NCBI RefSeq assembly: GCF_007990525.1
Contig: NZ_AP019823.1
Span: 248,001 to 312,000, forward strand
Direction of reading: 5' to 3'
DNA length: 64,000 bases
DNA from: Leptotrichia hofstadii
GTDB lineage: Bacteria > Fusobacteriota > Fusobacteriia > Fusobacteriales > Leptotrichiaceae
Part shown: positions 45,639-61,506 of the stretch, piece after piece
How positions within the stretch are numbered: position 1 is the stretch's first letter
Layout of the letters: each line of letters opens with the position of its first letter
Notes under the pieces: generated by a model
Told to the model about the DNA's origin: nothing
Seen by the model: the letters and a program-made list of their open reading frames with translations, nothing else
Database searches by the model: none
Position numbers and translations under genes: made by a program

Positions 45639-46385
45639 TTATTGCAAAGCGATGTATTTGTCATCCGACTCATTACCTGCCCTGTTATTGAAAAATATAT
45701 GGTCTATCAAATCGCTCAGGTTTTCAATGGAATTATCGTTTTTTACATCTACAACGTAATGAAATTTCCCATTATCAGCTTTTAAACGGTAAATTCTTAC
45801 TTCCTTATTGGAAAAATTATTTAATACAAGATGCCGTCCAAAAGTTGTAAACCACATAAGCGCTATCGCTGTAACCGATCTGTTTGCCAGATACGATTTG
45901 AGCAAATATAATGCAGGTAATATTTCAATGTCAAAAAAACCTTTACGCTGTGTTTCCCTGTAAGCATGCTCGATAATTGCTGCGGTTGTCAGCCCTGCTG
46001 TAAAGTTATTTATGCCTATTTGAAATTTTTCAACTTTACTTTTGCCAAGCCCATACAAGAAAGAAAGTAATATTGCGGCTCCAGAATAAACAGACAGTAA
46101 ATCTATTGATTTTTCTTCAAAATCTTCAACAAGTTTTACTGAAGTCATGCCATGTTCAACTGATAAGGCAGTCGCAGTTCGGTAAATTACTTCATCTATT
46201 GAAATTTCTTCAGGCTCAAATGTAACGAGCAAAGTATTTATAGTCTGATTATACCGTAAAGTTGTATTTTTAGTTTCAACTTTTACTGTTTCAAAAAATT
46301 TTTTTGTATTGGCAATATCGTGTGAAATTTTGAATCTGACACGATTCGGTAATTTATGCAGTATTATTAAGGTTAGTTTTTTCAT
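45639..46385 (-). CDS. HMA-like membrane protein of the metal-ATPase cluster
   Basis: A 248-residue protein. Residues 1-85 look like a ferredoxin-like HMA_2 domain: LTLIILHKLPNRVRFKISHD carries the basic NRVRFK motif in place of the metal-binding CxxC, and TLLVTFEPEEISIDEVIYR follows. About residues 95-185 hold two or three hydrophobic segments (LSVYSGAAILLSFLYGLG, SVTAIALMWFTTFGRHLVL). The C-terminus returns to a soluble EVRIYRLK...FHYVVDVKND strand pattern. That resembles the A-domain start of P-type ATPases, so this may be a truncated relative of their N-terminal half. It is encoded right after the ATPase. Confidence 0.65.
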   Translation of the reverse strand: MKKLTLIILHKLPNRVRFKISHDIANTKKFFETVKVETKNTTLRYNQTINTLLVTFEPEEISIDEVIYRTATALSVEHGMTSVKLVEDFEEKSIDLLSVYSGAAILLSFLYGLGKSKVEKFQIGINNFTAGLTTAAIIEHAYRETQRKGFFDIEILPALYLLKSYLANRSVTAIALMWFTTFGRHLVLNNFSNKEVRIYRLKADNGKFHYVVDVKNDNSIENLSDLIDHIFFNNRAGNESDDKYIALQ

Positions 46386-46421
46386 ATCTTAATTCAAACT
46401 CCTTCAAAAACACAAAAATTT

Positions 46422-48602
46422 TTATTTATTAACATCGTATTTTAATAGTCGCAATGAATTTCCAACTACTAAAATTGTGATAGAGTTATGCAAAATTGAA
46501 CTGTATATTGCAGGCAGAAGTCCTGTTGCACCTAATACAAGGGCAAAACTATTTATTCCAATTGCCATTGCAAAATTCTGCTTTATTATTTTTACAGTGT
46601 TTTTTGCTAAACCAATTACACCTGGTATTAGTAATGGGTCGTCTGAAGTTATTGTAACATCAGCAGCTTCCATCGCAATGTCGGTACGTGAACTTCCTAG
46701 AGCTATTCCTACATTTGCATAGGAAAGGGCAGGAGCGTCGTTTATTCCGTCACCTATCATAATAACTTTTGAACCAATTGAACGGAATTTTAAAATATCT
46801 TTAGCCTTGTCCTCAGGCATCAGTTCAGACTCGTATCTATCCATTGACATTCTTGAAGCGATAGTTTCAGCCTGCTGTCTCAAATCTCCCGTTAACAGTA
46901 CAATATCATCTATTCCTTGATTTCTTAGCCGATTCATTGCCTTTTTTATATTTTCCCTAGGCGGATCTGAAACACCGATAACACCTATTAAATCATTATT
47001 TTTAGCCACGTAAATTACAATTTCTCCACGATTTTGCATTCCCTTCACTATATCACTTGCCACTTCTAGTGAAATATCATTCTCTTCCATGTATTTCAGG
47101 CTTCCTACACGAATAATATCCTTATTTACAAAAGTTTCTATCCCTCTTGCAACTTTAATAACGGATTCCTTATGTTTTGGAATTTTTAATCCTCTATTTT
47201 TAATTTCATTCAAAATTGCACTTGCTAAAGGATGTGATGAAGTTTCTTCAGCCGCGGCAGCCAGTGCAAGCATTCTGTTATCCTTCATATTTTTTCCAAA
47301 AGTCTTTAGCGTTTGAATTTTAGGCTTTCCTTCGGTAATTGTACCTGTTTTGTCAAATATTACTGTGTCAGATTTTGAAAGTTCTTCCAGATAGTTGCTT
47401 CCTTTAATCAAAATTCCATTTTTAGCCGCTGTATTAATTGAAGCTGAAAATGCTGTTGCTGTTGACAGCCTTATTCCGCATGAATAGTCAATTACAAGCA
47501 TACTAAGGGCTTTTTGCAAGTTTTTCGTTGAAACATAGACAATTCCGGCGAGCAGAAAGTTAAGCGGGATTAACTGTGCAGAAAATGTATCGGCATAAGA
47601 TTGAATATCAGCCTTGTTAAAAGCGGCATCTTCCACTAATTTTATAATTCTGGAAGCTGTTCTGTCATCTCCAACCTTCTCAGCTTTTACAGTAATATTT
47701 CCACTTTTTAAAAGCGTTCCTGCAAAAACTTCTTCTCCAGCCTTTTTCGTAACAGGCATATATTCCCCAGTAATTGCCGACTGATCAATTATCGCCTCAC
47801 CTTTTTCAATCGTTCCATCCACACTTATTTTTTCCCCAGTTTGAACAAGTATAAAATCTCCCTTGCTAATTTCTTCAATTGGAACTTTTTTGGCCGTATT
47901 TCCATCATCAGACTGCTTCCAGACATAGTTTTCTCCAACACTTAACATGTCTTTAATTACGCCACGTGTCTTTTTCATTGTATAAACAGTCAGAAGCTCT
48001 GCAAATTTTTCTAAAATCATAATTGTCAAAGCTGTTCGTTCACTTCCTAAAATAATGCTGCTGACAATAGCTGTAGAACTTAGAGTATCTGCGTTGGGAC
48101 GCTTATTTTGAATAAGAGAATAAATTCCATTTTTTAAAACAGGCAGGGCTAAAGAAACTGTTGATAAAGTTTTGTAGTTAAATAGCCGCCTGATTCCTGT
48201 TAATTTTATCTTTGGATTTGGCAGTAGCAGTAAAAGTACAGCAGCACCAATATTTTTAATAATTTCCTGTGGAGATTCTTCCTGCAGACGTCTTTCAATC
48301 ACATATTTATTTGATATTTGTTTTTTTTCGTTTTTGTATATATCTACTAGATATGTATTTAATGTATTTTGAAGTAAAGATATTAAGTTTTCACCAGTTA
48401 ATGAGAAATTGTCAAAATAAACAAGAATAGTTCCTGTAATACTTGAAATTTCAACACTTTGGATATAATGAACCTGCATTAGCTGCTTTGTTATCTCTTC
48501 CTTATGAATTCCAAGATATTTTAAAGCTCTTGATTTTATTCTGATTCTTCCACGAATTTCGTGTAAAATCTTGCAGTCCAGCAAATAATCTTTATTTAAC
48601 AT
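46422..48602 (-). CDS. Metal P-type ATPase, CtpC-like
   Basis: A 726-residue P1B-type ATPase. The N-terminal HMA-like domain has EIRGRIRIKS (RGRIRIK at 17-23) rather than CxxC. The A domain has SAITGEYMPVTKKAG, the P domain FDKTGTITEGKP with phosphorylated D417, the N domain the SSHPLASAI His-Pro motif, and GDGINDAPALSYANVGIALG follows. The transport-site helix reads IDYSCGIRLSTATAF (C375) where CPC or SPC is usual. The C-terminal LHNSITILVVGNSLRLLKY is strikingly like that of mycobacterial CtpC (LHNASSVAVVANSSRL), linked to Zn or Mn export. Metal not determinable; DYSC departs from known selectivity motifs. AAAGGG site. Confidence 0.85.
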   Translation of the reverse strand: MLNKDYLLDCKILHEIRGRIRIKSRALKYLGIHKEEITKQLMQVHYIQSVEISSITGTILVYFDNFSLTGENLISLLQNTLNTYLVDIYKNEKKQISNKYVIERRLQEESPQEIIKNIGAAVLLLLLPNPKIKLTGIRRLFNYKTLSTVSLALPVLKNGIYSLIQNKRPNADTLSSTAIVSSIILGSERTALTIMILEKFAELLTVYTMKKTRGVIKDMLSVGENYVWKQSDDGNTAKKVPIEEISKGDFILVQTGEKISVDGTIEKGEAIIDQSAITGEYMPVTKKAGEEVFAGTLLKSGNITVKAEKVGDDRTASRIIKLVEDAAFNKADIQSYADTFSAQLIPLNFLLAGIVYVSTKNLQKALSMLVIDYSCGIRLSTATAFSASINTAAKNGILIKGSNYLEELSKSDTVIFDKTGTITEGKPKIQTLKTFGKNMKDNRMLALAAAAEETSSHPLASAILNEIKNRGLKIPKHKESVIKVARGIETFVNKDIIRVGSLKYMEENDISLEVASDIVKGMQNRGEIVIYVAKNNDLIGVIGVSDPPRENIKKAMNRLRNQGIDDIVLLTGDLRQQAETIASRMSMDRYESELMPEDKAKDILKFRSIGSKVIMIGDGINDAPALSYANVGIALGSSRTDIAMEAADVTITSDDPLLIPGVIGLAKNTVKIIKQNFAMAIGINSFALVLGATGLLPAIYSSILHNSITILVVGNSLRLLKYDVNK

Positions 48603-48635
48603 AAAAATCCCTTTCTTTTTTCATTTTGGCAATAA

Positions 48636-49007
48636 TTAAAGTTCTTTAATTATGTTATAAAAAGTATCCAAATTATCTTCTATTTCCTTTAAGGATTTAT
48701 TTTCATATAATTCAGAATGATTAATCATAGTTTTCCATACTTTGTTCAGCCAGTCCAGTATTTGTTTTTCTGAAATTAATTTTACATCATAGTAAATCAG
48801 AATTTTATTTGTCACATACGAATACTCAATACTTTTTATGCCTTTTTTTGATAAAATAAGTTCTGTAACTCGATAATCATATTTTTTTAATTCTTCTGGA
48901 ATTTTTGATAAATTTGGGACAGAAAGCCTTAATCTGCCAGGAATACTGTGTACAACCTTTATCTGATTAAACATCAGATATGTAGCCTTAAATAAATTTT
49001 CCAACAT
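48636..49007 (-). CDS. Small HMA-like protein without CxxC
   Basis: A 123-residue protein. IKVVHSIPGRLRLSVPNLSK contains the GRLRL motif shared with the ATPase N-terminus; ILSKKGIKSIEYSYVTNKILIYYDVKLISEKQILDWL gives the second half of the ferredoxin-like fold. No Cys is seen in a CxxC arrangement, so it is unlikely to be a classic copper-type chaperone. The ATG at 49007 overlaps the stop of the upstream gene (TAATG), with AAGGGAA before it; it is 33 bases before the ATPase gene. Confidence 0.7.
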   Translation of the reverse strand: MLENLFKATYLMFNQIKVVHSIPGRLRLSVPNLSKIPEELKKYDYRVTELILSKKGIKSIEYSYVTNKILIYYDVKLISEKQILDWLNKVWKTMINHSELYENKSLKEIEDNLDTFYNIIKEL

Positions 49008-49492
49008 TATTTTCTTTTCCCTTCTGATAAAAAAATAAAAGCCCACCATAACAGAGTGGCACCTGTAGGCAATTTTGGAAATTGTCTTAATTTTTTAATG
49101 CCATAAAAAGCAAAAATTCCTGCAACTAATGTCTTTAAGTCCAGATAACCTCTACTTTTATTGTAAATAGCCATATCAACAGATTCAAATGCCTGTTTTA
49201 ACATTTTTTTTACTTTTCCAGGCTTATTTTTTAAGGCTTCTTCTTCCAGATGGAGCAATTTTAGAACGATTAAATACAAAAACGAACTCTCAATAATTTT
49301 TTCATCAAAATAAATTAAGATGCTTCCAATAATGGAATTAACGCTTACTGAGTGTATTCCCGATAATTGACGCATATTATTTAAAAATTCCTGTTCTAAC
49401 TCCTCATTCTCTTTTAATGCATCTGTTTGAAGTCTCAACCGTCCATTCTGGTAATGTTTTACTTGAATAACGCCATAAAAATTTTGTAACAT
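49007..49492 (-). CDS. HMA-like protein with C-terminal membrane segment, first gene of the cluster
   Basis: A 161-residue protein. VIQVKHYQNGRLRLQTDALK carries the same NGRLRL motif, and IHSVSVNSIIGSILIYFDE matches the ISGIxxVxxxxxTGxxxIxYD half of an HMA fold. No CxxC is present. From about residue 85 a linker leads to two short hydrophobic segments (LKTLVAGIFAFYGI and TLLWWAFIFLSE) and a basic end. TAAGGAG precedes the ATG. It opens the minus-strand cluster of five genes; its stop overlaps the next start. Confidence 0.7.
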   Translation of the reverse strand: MLQNFYGVIQVKHYQNGRLRLQTDALKENEELEQEFLNNMRQLSGIHSVSVNSIIGSILIYFDEKIIESSFLYLIVLKLLHLEEEALKNKPGKVKKMLKQAFESVDMAIYNKSRGYLDLKTLVAGIFAFYGIKKLRQFPKLPTGATLLWWAFIFLSEGKRK

Positions 49493-56256: not shown

Positions 56257-56290
56257 AGGGGCAGTACAATTAAAGCCCCTTTTCTTTTAA
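56257..56290 (+). terminator. Terminator of the acyltransferase gene
   Basis: AGGGGC (56257-56262) with GCCCCT (56275-56280), followed by TTTTCTTTT. Confidence 0.75.
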
Positions 56291-56346: not shown

Positions 56347-56595
56347 CTATCTTCTTCTTCCAGCAGCTATTCTTGCACGTCTTTGTCTACGGGAAGGCTC
56401 TCTTTTCACATATACAACTTTCTTTCTTCTTGGAACTCTTACAAAAATATATCTTCTTCTTATTACTCTACGGGAAGGTTCTTTTTTTACATATACAATT
56501 CTGTTGTTTTTTCTAGTTGCAGCAAATGAAGTAACCGAAATACCAAGTATTCCTAAAATTAAAATTAGCTTTTTCATAAAGTTTTTTACATTCAT
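56347..56595 (-). CDS. Secreted arginine-rich peptide with an internal repeat
   Basis: An 82-residue protein. MNVKNFMKKLILILGILGISVTSFA is a typical signal peptide cleaved near SFA-AT. The mature part of about 57 residues has 19 Arg and 6 Lys against 2 Glu. It contains two copies of VYVK(K/R)EPSRR with RRR and RVPRRKK between, and ends ARIAAGRRR. It is not a ribosomal or known DNA-binding protein, and the signal argues for the periplasm or outside. GAAGGAGAG precedes the ATG by seven bases. Its own extended -10 promoter and a hairpin lie upstream. Function unknown. Confidence 0.75.
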   Translation of the reverse strand: MNVKNFMKKLILILGILGISVTSFAATRKNNRIVYVKKEPSRRVIRRRYIFVRVPRRKKVVYVKREPSRRQRRARIAAGRRR

Positions 56596-56629
56596 TTTAT
56601 TCTCTCCTTCTTTATTTTGATAAAAATTT

Positions 56630-56665
56630 CTTTTTGATAATTCAAAAAGTATTAAAAAAATTATA
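56630..56665 (-). promoter_or_regulatory. Promoter and leader hairpin of the arginine-rich peptide gene
   Basis: On the minus strand an extended -10 TGtTATAAT is at 56660-56668. Just downstream of the expected start a perfect eight-pair inverted repeat CTTTTTGA / TCAAAAAG (56630-56637, 56642-56649) with a four-base loop follows. It could be an operator or a stabilising 5' stem. Confidence 0.45.
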
Positions 56666-56806
56666 ACATAGTTTTATTTTAAAATATTGTAAAATTTATT
56701 TGAAATCTATGTTTTTGAAAAAATTTATTTTTTTTGCTATTTTTTTTGGAGAAATCAAGTTATAATTATATTGAGAAATACAAATTTTTTTCAAGGAGGA
56801 AAAGTT

Positions 56807-58597
56807 ATGAAAAAATTAATGTTATTGGGACTGGCAGTCTCATTATTTTCTACAGCAGGTTTGGAGGCAAAAACAATTCAAAGGGCAAAAAAACAAAGTT
56901 CATCAACTTCATTTGAGCTGAATGTAGCTCACATTAACGATCACCATTCACATCTGGAAGAGGAAAAAATGCCTCTTAAACTCAACGGAAAAACTGTTAC
57001 GGTACATATTGGAGGATTGCCAAGAGTCGCACAGGCAATCAAAAATTTTAGACAAGGCAATAAGAATACTCTTGTACTCCACGCAGGAGACGCGCTGACA
57101 GGGACGCTTTATTACACATTATTTGAAGGAAAAGCTGATGCTGAGCTTATGAATGCAATAAATTTTGATGTTTTTACATTGGGAAATCACGAATTTGACG
57201 ATGGAAACAAACTTTTAAAATCATTTTTAGATGTCTTGAAAATACCAGTAGTTTCAGCAAATGTTGTGCCTGATAAAGGAAGCATTCTGGAAGGAAAATG
57301 GAAACCGTACATGATAAAAAATGTTGGCGGGCAAAATATTGGAATTATTGGACTGGATGTTGTGAAAAAAACTAAGGAATCTTCTAGTCCGGGAGATGAC
57401 ATTAAATTCCTTGATGAAGTTGAAACAGCGAGAAAATATGTAAATGAGCTGCAAGGCAAAGGAATAAATAAAATAATAATTGTATCCCATTCAGGATACG
57501 AAAAAAATGTGGAAATTGGGGAGAAGGTTGACGGAGTTGATTTGATCATAACTGGGGACACTCATTATTTATTAGGGAAAGAATTTGAACAATTTGGATT
57601 AGTTCCTGAAAAAGAGGATTACCCTAAAAAAGTAAATTCACCTAACGGAAATCCAGTTTATATTGCAGAAGCATGGAATTATTCGTATTTATTAGGGCAA
57701 ATGAAAGCAAAATTTGACAAGAATGGCGTAATTACCGAATTAATCCCAACACCGAAAGTTCTAATTGGAGATGACTTTTTTGAAGTGAAAAATGCTGAAG
57801 GGAAGGCAGTTCAGTTAGATGCGAAAGAAAAAAATGCAATGTTAAACTCAATAAAGAACAATAAAAATATAGCTGCCATCAAAAATGACCCAACTTTAGC
57901 AAAGCTTCTCGAAAGATACCAAAAAGAAAAAACAGAACTTGGAAAACGTACAATTGGTAAAATTACAGAAGAAATTCCAGGAGGTTCAGACAACAGAGTA
58001 CCAGGACCTCACAATAAAGACGGTTCTTTTGCAACAACACTTGTAGCTGAATCAGTTTTACATAAATTAAGAAATACAGGAACTGGAAACGTTGACTTTG
58101 TAATTGTAAACGCAGGTAACGTAAGAATCACATTAAATCCAGGTGTATTCACTTATGATTTGGCATATTCATTACTGCCATTTACTTCAAACACAGTATT
58201 TATAACAGACATTACAGGTGCAGAAGTGAAACAGACATTAGAAGACGCAATTGACTATGTTCTAAATGGAGGTTCAAGCGGTGCATTCCCTTATGGTGCA
58301 GGAATTAGATACGAAGCTACAAAAGAAGGAACACTTGGTACAAGAGTCAAAAAAATAGAAGTATTCGACTTTAAAGCAAACAAATGGGTGCCAATTGACG
58401 CTAAAAAAACATATATGTTAGCTGTAAACTCTTACATCGCCAAAGGAAAAGACGGCTACACAACATTAGGAAAAATCACATCCCAAAAACGTGGAAGAGA
58501 TACTCATTTAAGCGATACTAAAATATTTATTGACTATTTGAAAGAGAAAAAAGAAATAGGAAAACCAAAATCTACAAACGTAATCTTCAAATACTAA
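56807..58597 (+). CDS. Secreted 5'-nucleotidase / UshA-like phosphoesterase
   Basis: Exported metallophosphoesterase that dephosphorylates nucleotides. The signal peptide MKKLMLLGLAVSLFSTAGLEA is followed by a metal-binding N-terminal domain (AHINDHHSHLE, LHAGDALTGTLYYTLF, TLGNHEFDDGN, IVSHSGYEKN, TGDTHYLLG) and the 5'_nucleotid_C substrate domain (VIVNAGNVRITL, GGSSGAFPYGAGIRYE, with IAKGKDGYTTL). Length of 596 is normal. The ATG at 56807 is preceded by AAGGAGG; the frame extends further up but not with a signal. A TATAAT is at 56761-56766. Likely role is salvage of extracellular nucleotides. Confidence 0.92.
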   Translation: MKKLMLLGLAVSLFSTAGLEAKTIQRAKKQSSSTSFELNVAHINDHHSHLEEEKMPLKLNGKTVTVHIGGLPRVAQAIKNFRQGNKNTLVLHAGDALTGTLYYTLFEGKADAELMNAINFDVFTLGNHEFDDGNKLLKSFLDVLKIPVVSANVVPDKGSILEGKWKPYMIKNVGGQNIGIIGLDVVKKTKESSSPGDDIKFLDEVETARKYVNELQGKGINKIIIVSHSGYEKNVEIGEKVDGVDLIITGDTHYLLGKEFEQFGLVPEKEDYPKKVNSPNGNPVYIAEAWNYSYLLGQMKAKFDKNGVITELIPTPKVLIGDDFFEVKNAEGKAVQLDAKEKNAMLNSIKNNKNIAAIKNDPTLAKLLERYQKEKTELGKRTIGKITEEIPGGSDNRVPGPHNKDGSFATTLVAESVLHKLRNTGTGNVDFVIVNAGNVRITLNPGVFTYDLAYSLLPFTSNTVFITDITGAEVKQTLEDAIDYVLNGGSSGAFPYGAGIRYEATKEGTLGTRVKKIEVFDFKANKWVPIDAKKTYMLAVNSYIAKGKDGYTTLGKITSQKRGRDTHLSDTKIFIDYLKEKKEIGKPKSTNVIFKY

Positions 58598-59850: not shown

Positions 59851-61506
59851 ATGACAACAGAAAATACGGATACCATTTTAATAAAACGAGAAGTAAGTAT
59901 AAAAATATTGGGAACAAGCGATGTTCATGGTAGAGTGCTTGCTTGGAACTATGCAGCTGATGAAGAGGATAGGTCAGGCTCTTATGCACAGATTTCAACA
60001 TTGGTGAAAAAAATTAGAAAAAAGAATAAAAATGTGATTTTGGTTGAAGTTGGGGATGCGATTCAAGATAATTGGATAGAAAAATTTGCAATGGCTTCAA
60101 AACATCCCATCCCAGAAATACTAAATTACATAGGTTATGATATTTTTGTACCGGGAAATCATGAGTTTAACTTTGGAATGCCAACTTTATCAAATATATT
60201 GCGAGATATGAAATTTAAAAAACTGACTGCTAATTTGTATTACAATGAAAACGCTGAAAATGATACCAATTTTTCAAAAGATAAAAGCAGATATTTAGAT
60301 GCTTCTACGATTATTGAAAAGGATGGTGTGAAGATTGGAATTATTGGATTATCAACTCCAATGTCAGCACAATTTGAAGAAGATACTGGCTATTTGAAGG
60401 ATTTTTATTTTGTGTCGCCTATAAAGGAAACTCAAAAACAAGTAAAAAGACTTAAAAAGGAAGGTGCAAACGCTATTGTTGTAGTAGCTCATATGGGCAT
60501 TGAAAATGAAAATGGAATTCCTGAAACTGGAGTAAAGGATTTAGCAAACGCTGTACCTGAAATTGATGTGATTATAGCAGGACATATGCATCAGAATATA
60601 CCAAAGGAAATAATTAACGGTGTTCTTATTACAGAGCCTCATAGATATGGAACTGTTATTTCAGAAGTAGACCTAAAATTTGAAGTATTGGATGAAAATA
60701 TTAAATTAATAAGTAAAGATTCTACGACTATTCCTGTAAAAGATGAAGAACCTGATAAAAAAATTGAAGAGATTTATAAACCTTTTCACAATAGACTTTG
60801 CAGAATTGCAAATGAAAAAATAGGGAATACGCTAAATGATATGGTTCCCAAAGAAAAATATTATGGTATGTCAGCAGCTTTTGCTAAAGATACAGGACTG
60901 TCGTCATTTATAACTGATGTTGAGCTTTATTACAGCGGTGCAGATGTCGTTTCATTTGCATACAATTATGAAAATGTAAAACTGGATAAAGGGGAAATTA
61001 AGAGAAAAGACATAGTTTACAACTACCGTTACACAGGTGGAGATGTTACAATTTACGAAATGACTGGAAAACAGTTAAAAGACTATATGGAATGGTCTGC
61101 TGACTATTTTGATACAATTAGAACTGGAGATACCGAGTATCACTATAATCCAGAACGTTCTAACGGAAAATATGTAACATTTGATATTTTTGGCGGGGTG
61201 AAATATAAAATTGATTTAAGAAATGAAAAAGGCAATAAAATTACCAACCTGATGTTAGTTAATGGAACTAAAATAACGCCTGAAATGAAATTAAAAGTTG
61301 GAATGAATGCCTATAGGTTTGAACAGCTGGCTAGAAAAGGCGGTATTTTTGATGGTCAGAAAATCCCAGTCTTATGGGCCTCAAAAGAAATAATTGGAAA
61401 TATAAAGGGAACCATTCAGAATATGATGATTGACTATATTCGAGATGTAAAAAATGGTGTAATTGATGGAAAGAGTCATAATAACTGGGAAATAATTGGA
61501 TTATAA
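59851..61506 (+). CDS. Cytosolic 2',3'-cyclic phosphodiesterase / 5'-nucleotidase family protein
   Basis: A 551-residue two-domain metallophosphoesterase like CpdB or the bacterial 5'-nucleotidases. The metal motifs are ILGTSDVHGRVLAW, VEVGDAIQDNW, VPGNHEFNFG, VVVAHMGIE and AGHMHQNI. The C-terminal 5'_nucleotid_C domain includes GLSSFITDVELYYSGADVVSFAYNYENV and YMEWSADYFD. There is no signal peptide: the N-terminus MTTENTDTILIKREVSIK is polar, and an in-frame TGA at 59830-59832 rules out an upstream extension with a signal. It is therefore probably intracellular, unlike UshA at 56.8 kb. Substrate unknown. Confidence 0.87.
   Translation: MTTENTDTILIKREVSIKILGTSDVHGRVLAWNYAADEEDRSGSYAQISTLVKKIRKKNKNVILVEVGDAIQDNWIEKFAMASKHPIPEILNYIGYDIFVPGNHEFNFGMPTLSNILRDMKFKKLTANLYYNENAENDTNFSKDKSRYLDASTIIEKDGVKIGIIGLSTPMSAQFEEDTGYLKDFYFVSPIKETQKQVKRLKKEGANAIVVVAHMGIENENGIPETGVKDLANAVPEIDVIIAGHMHQNIPKEIINGVLITEPHRYGTVISEVDLKFEVLDENIKLISKDSTTIPVKDEEPDKKIEEIYKPFHNRLCRIANEKIGNTLNDMVPKEKYYGMSAAFAKDTGLSSFITDVELYYSGADVVSFAYNYENVKLDKGEIKRKDIVYNYRYTGGDVTIYEMTGKQLKDYMEWSADYFDTIRTGDTEYHYNPERSNGKYVTFDIFGGVKYKIDLRNEKGNKITNLMLVNGTKITPEMKLKVGMNAYRFEQLARKGGIFDGQKIPVLWASKEIIGNIKGTIQNMMIDYIRDVKNGVIDGKSHNNWEIIGL

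Follow-up and report, generated by a model that had tools for sequence, protein, structure and literature searches.

The E. coli protein Asr is a disordered periplasmic chaperone that contributes to outer-membrane integrity (PMC10746267). The Leptotrichia protein described here is, like Asr, small and basic, and it is predicted to be Sec-exported and disordered, without a folded domain. It differs in having no sequence match to the Asr family. Hmmscan searches of Pfam-A detected no Asr match for any of the 14 members of the Leptotrichia family to E = 1 or for the query alone to E = 10; the two proteins are comparable, not homologous. Nor is Asr known to carry the VYVK-x-EP motif that recurs in the Leptotrichia protein. 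Protamine- and histone-tail-like polycations share with this protein Arg blocks, predicted disorder and a very high pI, whereas the Leptotrichia protein has a signal for export, and Glu and Pro occur in its conserved motif. Searches of Pfam, NCBIfam (with the query), PHROGs and the PDB gave no match above the cut-off, and the sub-threshold matches of the query were mostly to its signal peptide. The literature searched held nothing on this protein in Leptotrichia. It represents an undescribed lineage-specific family among the small exported basic proteins.

A second family of small exported proteins, rich in Lys and Pro, was also observed in these same genomes, typified by L031 4344-4616 (G000:C1:2182352-2182555) with relatives L032-L040 and L104. 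These proteins have a signal peptide near-identical to that of the query, a similar size and a mature net charge of +14 to +17. One of them, L032, carries IVKHENKKP and IKHEPRR stretches and matches the query at E = 2.7e-8. The family differs in the absence of VYVK-x-EP, in the use of Lys and Pro over Arg, and in promoter region and neighbors, and its homology to the query would rest mainly on the signal peptide. The L031 gene is divergent from a DnaJ-like gene and lies upstream of glycogen-synthesis genes.

The Gene, Its Product, and Its Distribution

The gene lies on the minus strand of the 64,000-nucleotide stretch of Leptotrichia hofstadii DNA that was analyzed (the window), and its features are collected in Table 1. 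The full translation is MNVKNFMKKLILILGILGISVTSFA followed, after the predicted cleavage point, by ATRKNNRIVYVKKEPSRRVIRRRYIFVRVPRRKKVVYVKREPSRRQRRARIAAGRRR. Sequence reading predicts cleavage of the signal peptidase I type after SFA (S-F-A/A) at residue 25. The layout is kept in the other members: the signal peptide is short and ends in SFA, SFS or similar, and roughly 45-64 residues make up the mature part. An earlier sequence-only reading had proposed an exported, arginine-rich peptide at this position, and the export signal and the extreme basicity are borne out. Its counts for the mature part (19 Arg, 6 Lys and 2 Glu in about 57 residues) proved exact on recount, and the ORF is the most Arg-rich of the 120 ATG-started ORFs of at least 50 amino acids in the window, with 23% Arg as against 12% in the runner-up. 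AGA accounts for 16 of the 19 Arg codons, and the GC content of the gene equals that of the window (31%), so that the gene looks native. A phage or plasmid origin was rejected, as there was no match in phages, plasmids or viral contigs.

Table 1. Features of the locus (positions in the window)
Feature	Position	Strand	Details and basis
Gene for exported basic protein	56347..56595	-	ATG 56595, stop TAG 56347; 82 codons; orthologues, dN/dS
Sec-type signal peptide, residues 1-25, MNVKNFMKKLILILGILGISVTSFA	56521..56595	-	Sequence reading; layout kept in orthologues
Mature part, 57 residues, net charge +23, predicted disordered	56350..56520	-	Composition and AlphaFold2
Motif copy 1, VYVKKEPSRR, residues 34-43	56467..56496	-	Repeat comparison, orthologues, motif search
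Motif copy 2, VYVKREPSRR, residues 61-70	56386..56415	-	Repeat comparison, orthologues, motif search
Ribosome-binding site AAGGAGAG, 6 nt before ATG	56602..56609	-	Sequence reading; similar purine-rich sites in orthologues
Extended -10 element TGTTATAAT	56660..56668	-	TG and TATAAT invariant in nine aligned orthologues
Conserved upstream block ATTTCAAATAAATTTTACAATATTTT, possible -35 region or regulator site	56681..56706	-	Only perfect copy in genome
GC-rich hairpin	56257..56280	.	T-rich on both sides; -10 to -13 kcal/mol, z about -1.9

Among 60 related genomes, clear homologues were found in 13 of 13 genomes of the genus and, outside it, in a single genome from a second genus of the family (E = 3e-45 to 4e-7). 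When 98 genomes of the phylum were searched with a profile, the same 14 members were recovered, and these, query included, constitute the family of orthologues. A tblastn scan of contigs matched only two close relatives, perhaps as a result of low-complexity filtering. Matches outside the genus with E values of 1e-4 to 1 were mostly other exported proteins that aligned via the signal peptide alone. The protein is a genus-wide small protein of Leptotrichia. The sequence-only reading had itself suggested a homologue search, and had named a lack of homologues as part of what would mark the frame as a chance one; a match in every member of the genus removes that ground for doubt.

For the nine closest orthologues, pairwise dN/dS was 0.09-0.22 in all pairs shown, indicating that purifying selection acts on the protein sequence. 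The ORF is a real gene and not a chance frame, because it has orthologues across the genus and a dN/dS of ~0.1-0.2. For a frame that is open by chance, or a functional RNA that is open by coincidence, only the short length of the ORF speaks. Per site, synonymous changes exceed non-synonymous changes ~5-10-fold, the locus has no Rfam match, the leader folds no better than shuffled sequences, and the conservation of the reading frame refutes both ideas, whose probability we regard as negligible.

The distribution also bears on the suggestion in the sequence-only reading that the product is an antimicrobial peptide. A bacteriocin secreted against competitors might well be small, highly cationic and exported, as this protein is or is predicted to be. 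Bacteriocins are usually patchy in distribution; this gene is universal in the genus and is under purifying selection. No immunity, transporter, export or processing gene was recognizable alongside it in any of the 14 genome neighborhoods, and AlphaFold2 predicted no amphipathic helix for most of the mature part. Given the universal presence and slow evolution of the gene, a bacteriocin is very unlikely, and the antimicrobial suggestion gains no support.

The Repeated Motif and the Conserved Charge

The duplicated VYVK-EPSRR motif noted in the sequence-only reading was confirmed, and the duplication is also apparent at the DNA level (74% identity across 61 nt). Nearly every family member has two copies of VYVK[KR]EP, and L010 and L011 have three. 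Variant copies are VYVKREN (the third copy of L011), VYIKREP (one copy in L010) and VYVRREP (one copy in L013). The residues that are invariant in the alignment of the mature parts are V34, Y35, V36, K37, E39 and P40 in the first copy, V61, Y62, V63, E66 and P67 in the second, and K59. By this alignment VYVK-x-EP is the near-invariant core of the protein. A DNA pattern for VYVK, a basic or similar residue, and EP was searched in 33 genomes and was confined to this gene in 13 of 13 genus genomes; the reversed control pattern gave no match in the same 33 genomes, and the motif was found nowhere else in the proteomes of the 13 genus genomes. That VYVK-x-EP is invariant points to a specific partner. 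The stretch YIFVRVP between the two copies was considered as a degenerate third repeat and rejected, since ~750-830 of 5000 shuffled sequences match IVYVKREP equally well.

A net charge of +19 to +27 is kept across the family, with a basic fraction of 0.41-0.47 in every member (for L012-L014 this calculation took the mature part to begin a few residues ahead of its proper start, without effect on the charge). The ratio of Arg to Lys ranges from 25:4 to 7:14 in the mature parts and from 25:7 to 7:17 in the whole proteins. The linkers between and after the motif copies drift in sequence and length while the charge stays steady. Among the nine closest members, 10 of the 12 variable columns that contain basic residues vary only between Lys and Arg; with a neutral guess of 0.25-0.35 for the chance rate, the binomial p is 4e-5 to 8e-4. 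Charge is therefore held while Arg and Lys swap freely. What stays constant across the family is predicted export, total positive charge and VYVK-x-EP.

AlphaFold2, run with the 14-member alignment, gave a model with a mean pLDDT of 54.9, comprising a signal-peptide helix, residues 27-64 with pLDDT below 50, and a low-confidence C-terminal helix. The mature chain is probably disordered, low AlphaFold confidence on just 14 sequences being weak evidence for disorder.

Expression Signals and Genomic Neighborhood

Nine orthologues share the upstream block ATTTCAAATnnATTT[TG]ACAATATTTT together with TG-n-TATAAT. The TGnTATAAT element is also found upstream of the gene in L011-L014 and was not seen upstream of the L010 gene. 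These conserved elements support the earlier proposal that the gene has its own promoter. The distance from TTTACA (TT[TG]ACA in the orthologues) to TATAAT is 22 nt, so this is no ordinary -35/-10 pair; an extended -10 element with a conserved upstream site is the best description. There is no second perfect copy of the upstream block in the genome. A promoter regulon shared with other genes was rejected, as the seven genomic sites with 3 mismatches have no TATAAT at the matching offset. The leader hairpin that the sequence-only reading had also proposed fared less well. The leader can be folded into a small A/U hairpin, but in the window the z-score of this hairpin against shuffled sequences is -0.22 and the structure differs between species; with a stability like that of shuffles and no single structure common to the orthologues, it was rejected as a conserved RNA element. 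Downstream, the hairpin at 56257-56280 is likely to be a bidirectional terminator shared with a convergent acyltransferase-like gene. With its own promoter and terminator, the gene would stand alone as a transcription unit.

In 10 of the 14 genomes, a gene for an exported 5'-nucleotidase is divergent from the small gene, with both promoters in one intergenic region. Three genus members with a shorter version of the protein (L012-L014) have the gene near rsmG/mnmG, and in the member from the other genus it lies beside a phosphoenolpyruvate carboxykinase-like gene. The gene is conserved independently of its neighbors.

Other observations concern the surroundings of the gene. The window contains two 5'-nucleotidase/2',3'-cyclic phosphodiesterase-like genes close together, at 56807-58597 and 59851-61506; the product of the former is exported, and its gene is the one divergent from the small gene. 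In L. hongkongensis, a transposase-like helix-turn-helix gene (L096 5335-5760) lies between the 5'-nucleotidase gene and the small gene and leaves the promoter block of the latter intact. Elsewhere in the window, at 45639-49492, the products of three adjoining genes start with similar RGR-type stretches (LxxxRGRIRIK, LPNRVRFKI and QNGRLRLQT). The large gene of this trio is P-type ATPase-sized, and the trio is possibly a metal-handling cluster.

The divergent 5'-nucleotidase gene, with its common intergenic promoter region, would suit an exported protamine-like protein that binds nucleic acid and keeps extracellular DNA or RNA on the cell surface, for a biofilm matrix or as nutrients, and a polycation with RRR blocks would be apt for that task. 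However, the linkage is missing in three genus members and in the other genus and may reflect shared ancestry only, and the invariant Glu and Pro of the motif are unneeded for binding by charge. We consider this explanation unlikely.

Candidate Roles in the Cell Envelope

The explanation that we favor, tentatively, is that the protein is a disordered envelope polycation that combines charge with a docking motif and protects or stabilizes the envelope in a manner like that of Asr. The constancy of predicted export, charge and VYVK-x-EP suits a disordered polycation whose acidic partners lie outside the membrane and which binds them with the help of a short specific element. The Sec pathway would export the small protein and the signal peptide would be removed, leaving a mature part that remains for the most part unfolded, either in the periplasm or on the cell surface. 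There, the polycation (+19 to +27) would bind acidic envelope components or client proteins by charge, while the VYVK-x-EP copies would serve as short docking or self-pairing strands. The outcome would be an envelope protected or stabilized, for example under the acid that Leptotrichia itself makes, as the unrelated E. coli Asr works. The partner, the role in the envelope and any link to acid are our inferences, the last by analogy only; no acid-linked feature was found in the promoter or neighborhood.

A role based purely on charge would leave the invariance of VYVK-x-EP unexplained. A more specific proposal, possible if doubtful, is that one envelope partner is recognized through VYVK-x-EP, a docking motif specific to the genus, and that the protein is a charge-tuned disordered envelope chaperone whose origin in Leptotrichia and a sister genus was independent of Asr.

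The protein might instead be a structural counter-ion associated with lipopolysaccharide or peptidoglycan, with VYV strands that rest against lipid A or against an outer-membrane protein, and basic linkers that bridge phosphates. The alternating hydrophobic/aromatic V-Y-V strand adjoining Lys/Arg is consistent with this idea, and presence throughout the genus and slow evolution fit a structural role. The idea overlaps with the envelope polycation that we favor, from which sequence cannot separate it, and we rate it as improbable. Of the targets that the sequence-only reading had offered, binding of a polyanion outside the membrane is plausible, as charge is kept while Arg and Lys swap; sequence does not separate nucleic acid from lipopolysaccharide.

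Leptotrichia is a mouth bacterium and a common oral genus, and the protein defines a lineage-specific family within it. Selection in this family makes a clear split, fixing the VYVK-x-EP copies and the total charge while the choice of Arg or Lys and the length of the linkers drift. The family thereby provides a simple example, open to testing, of how an exported and probably disordered protein evolves with its charge conserved.
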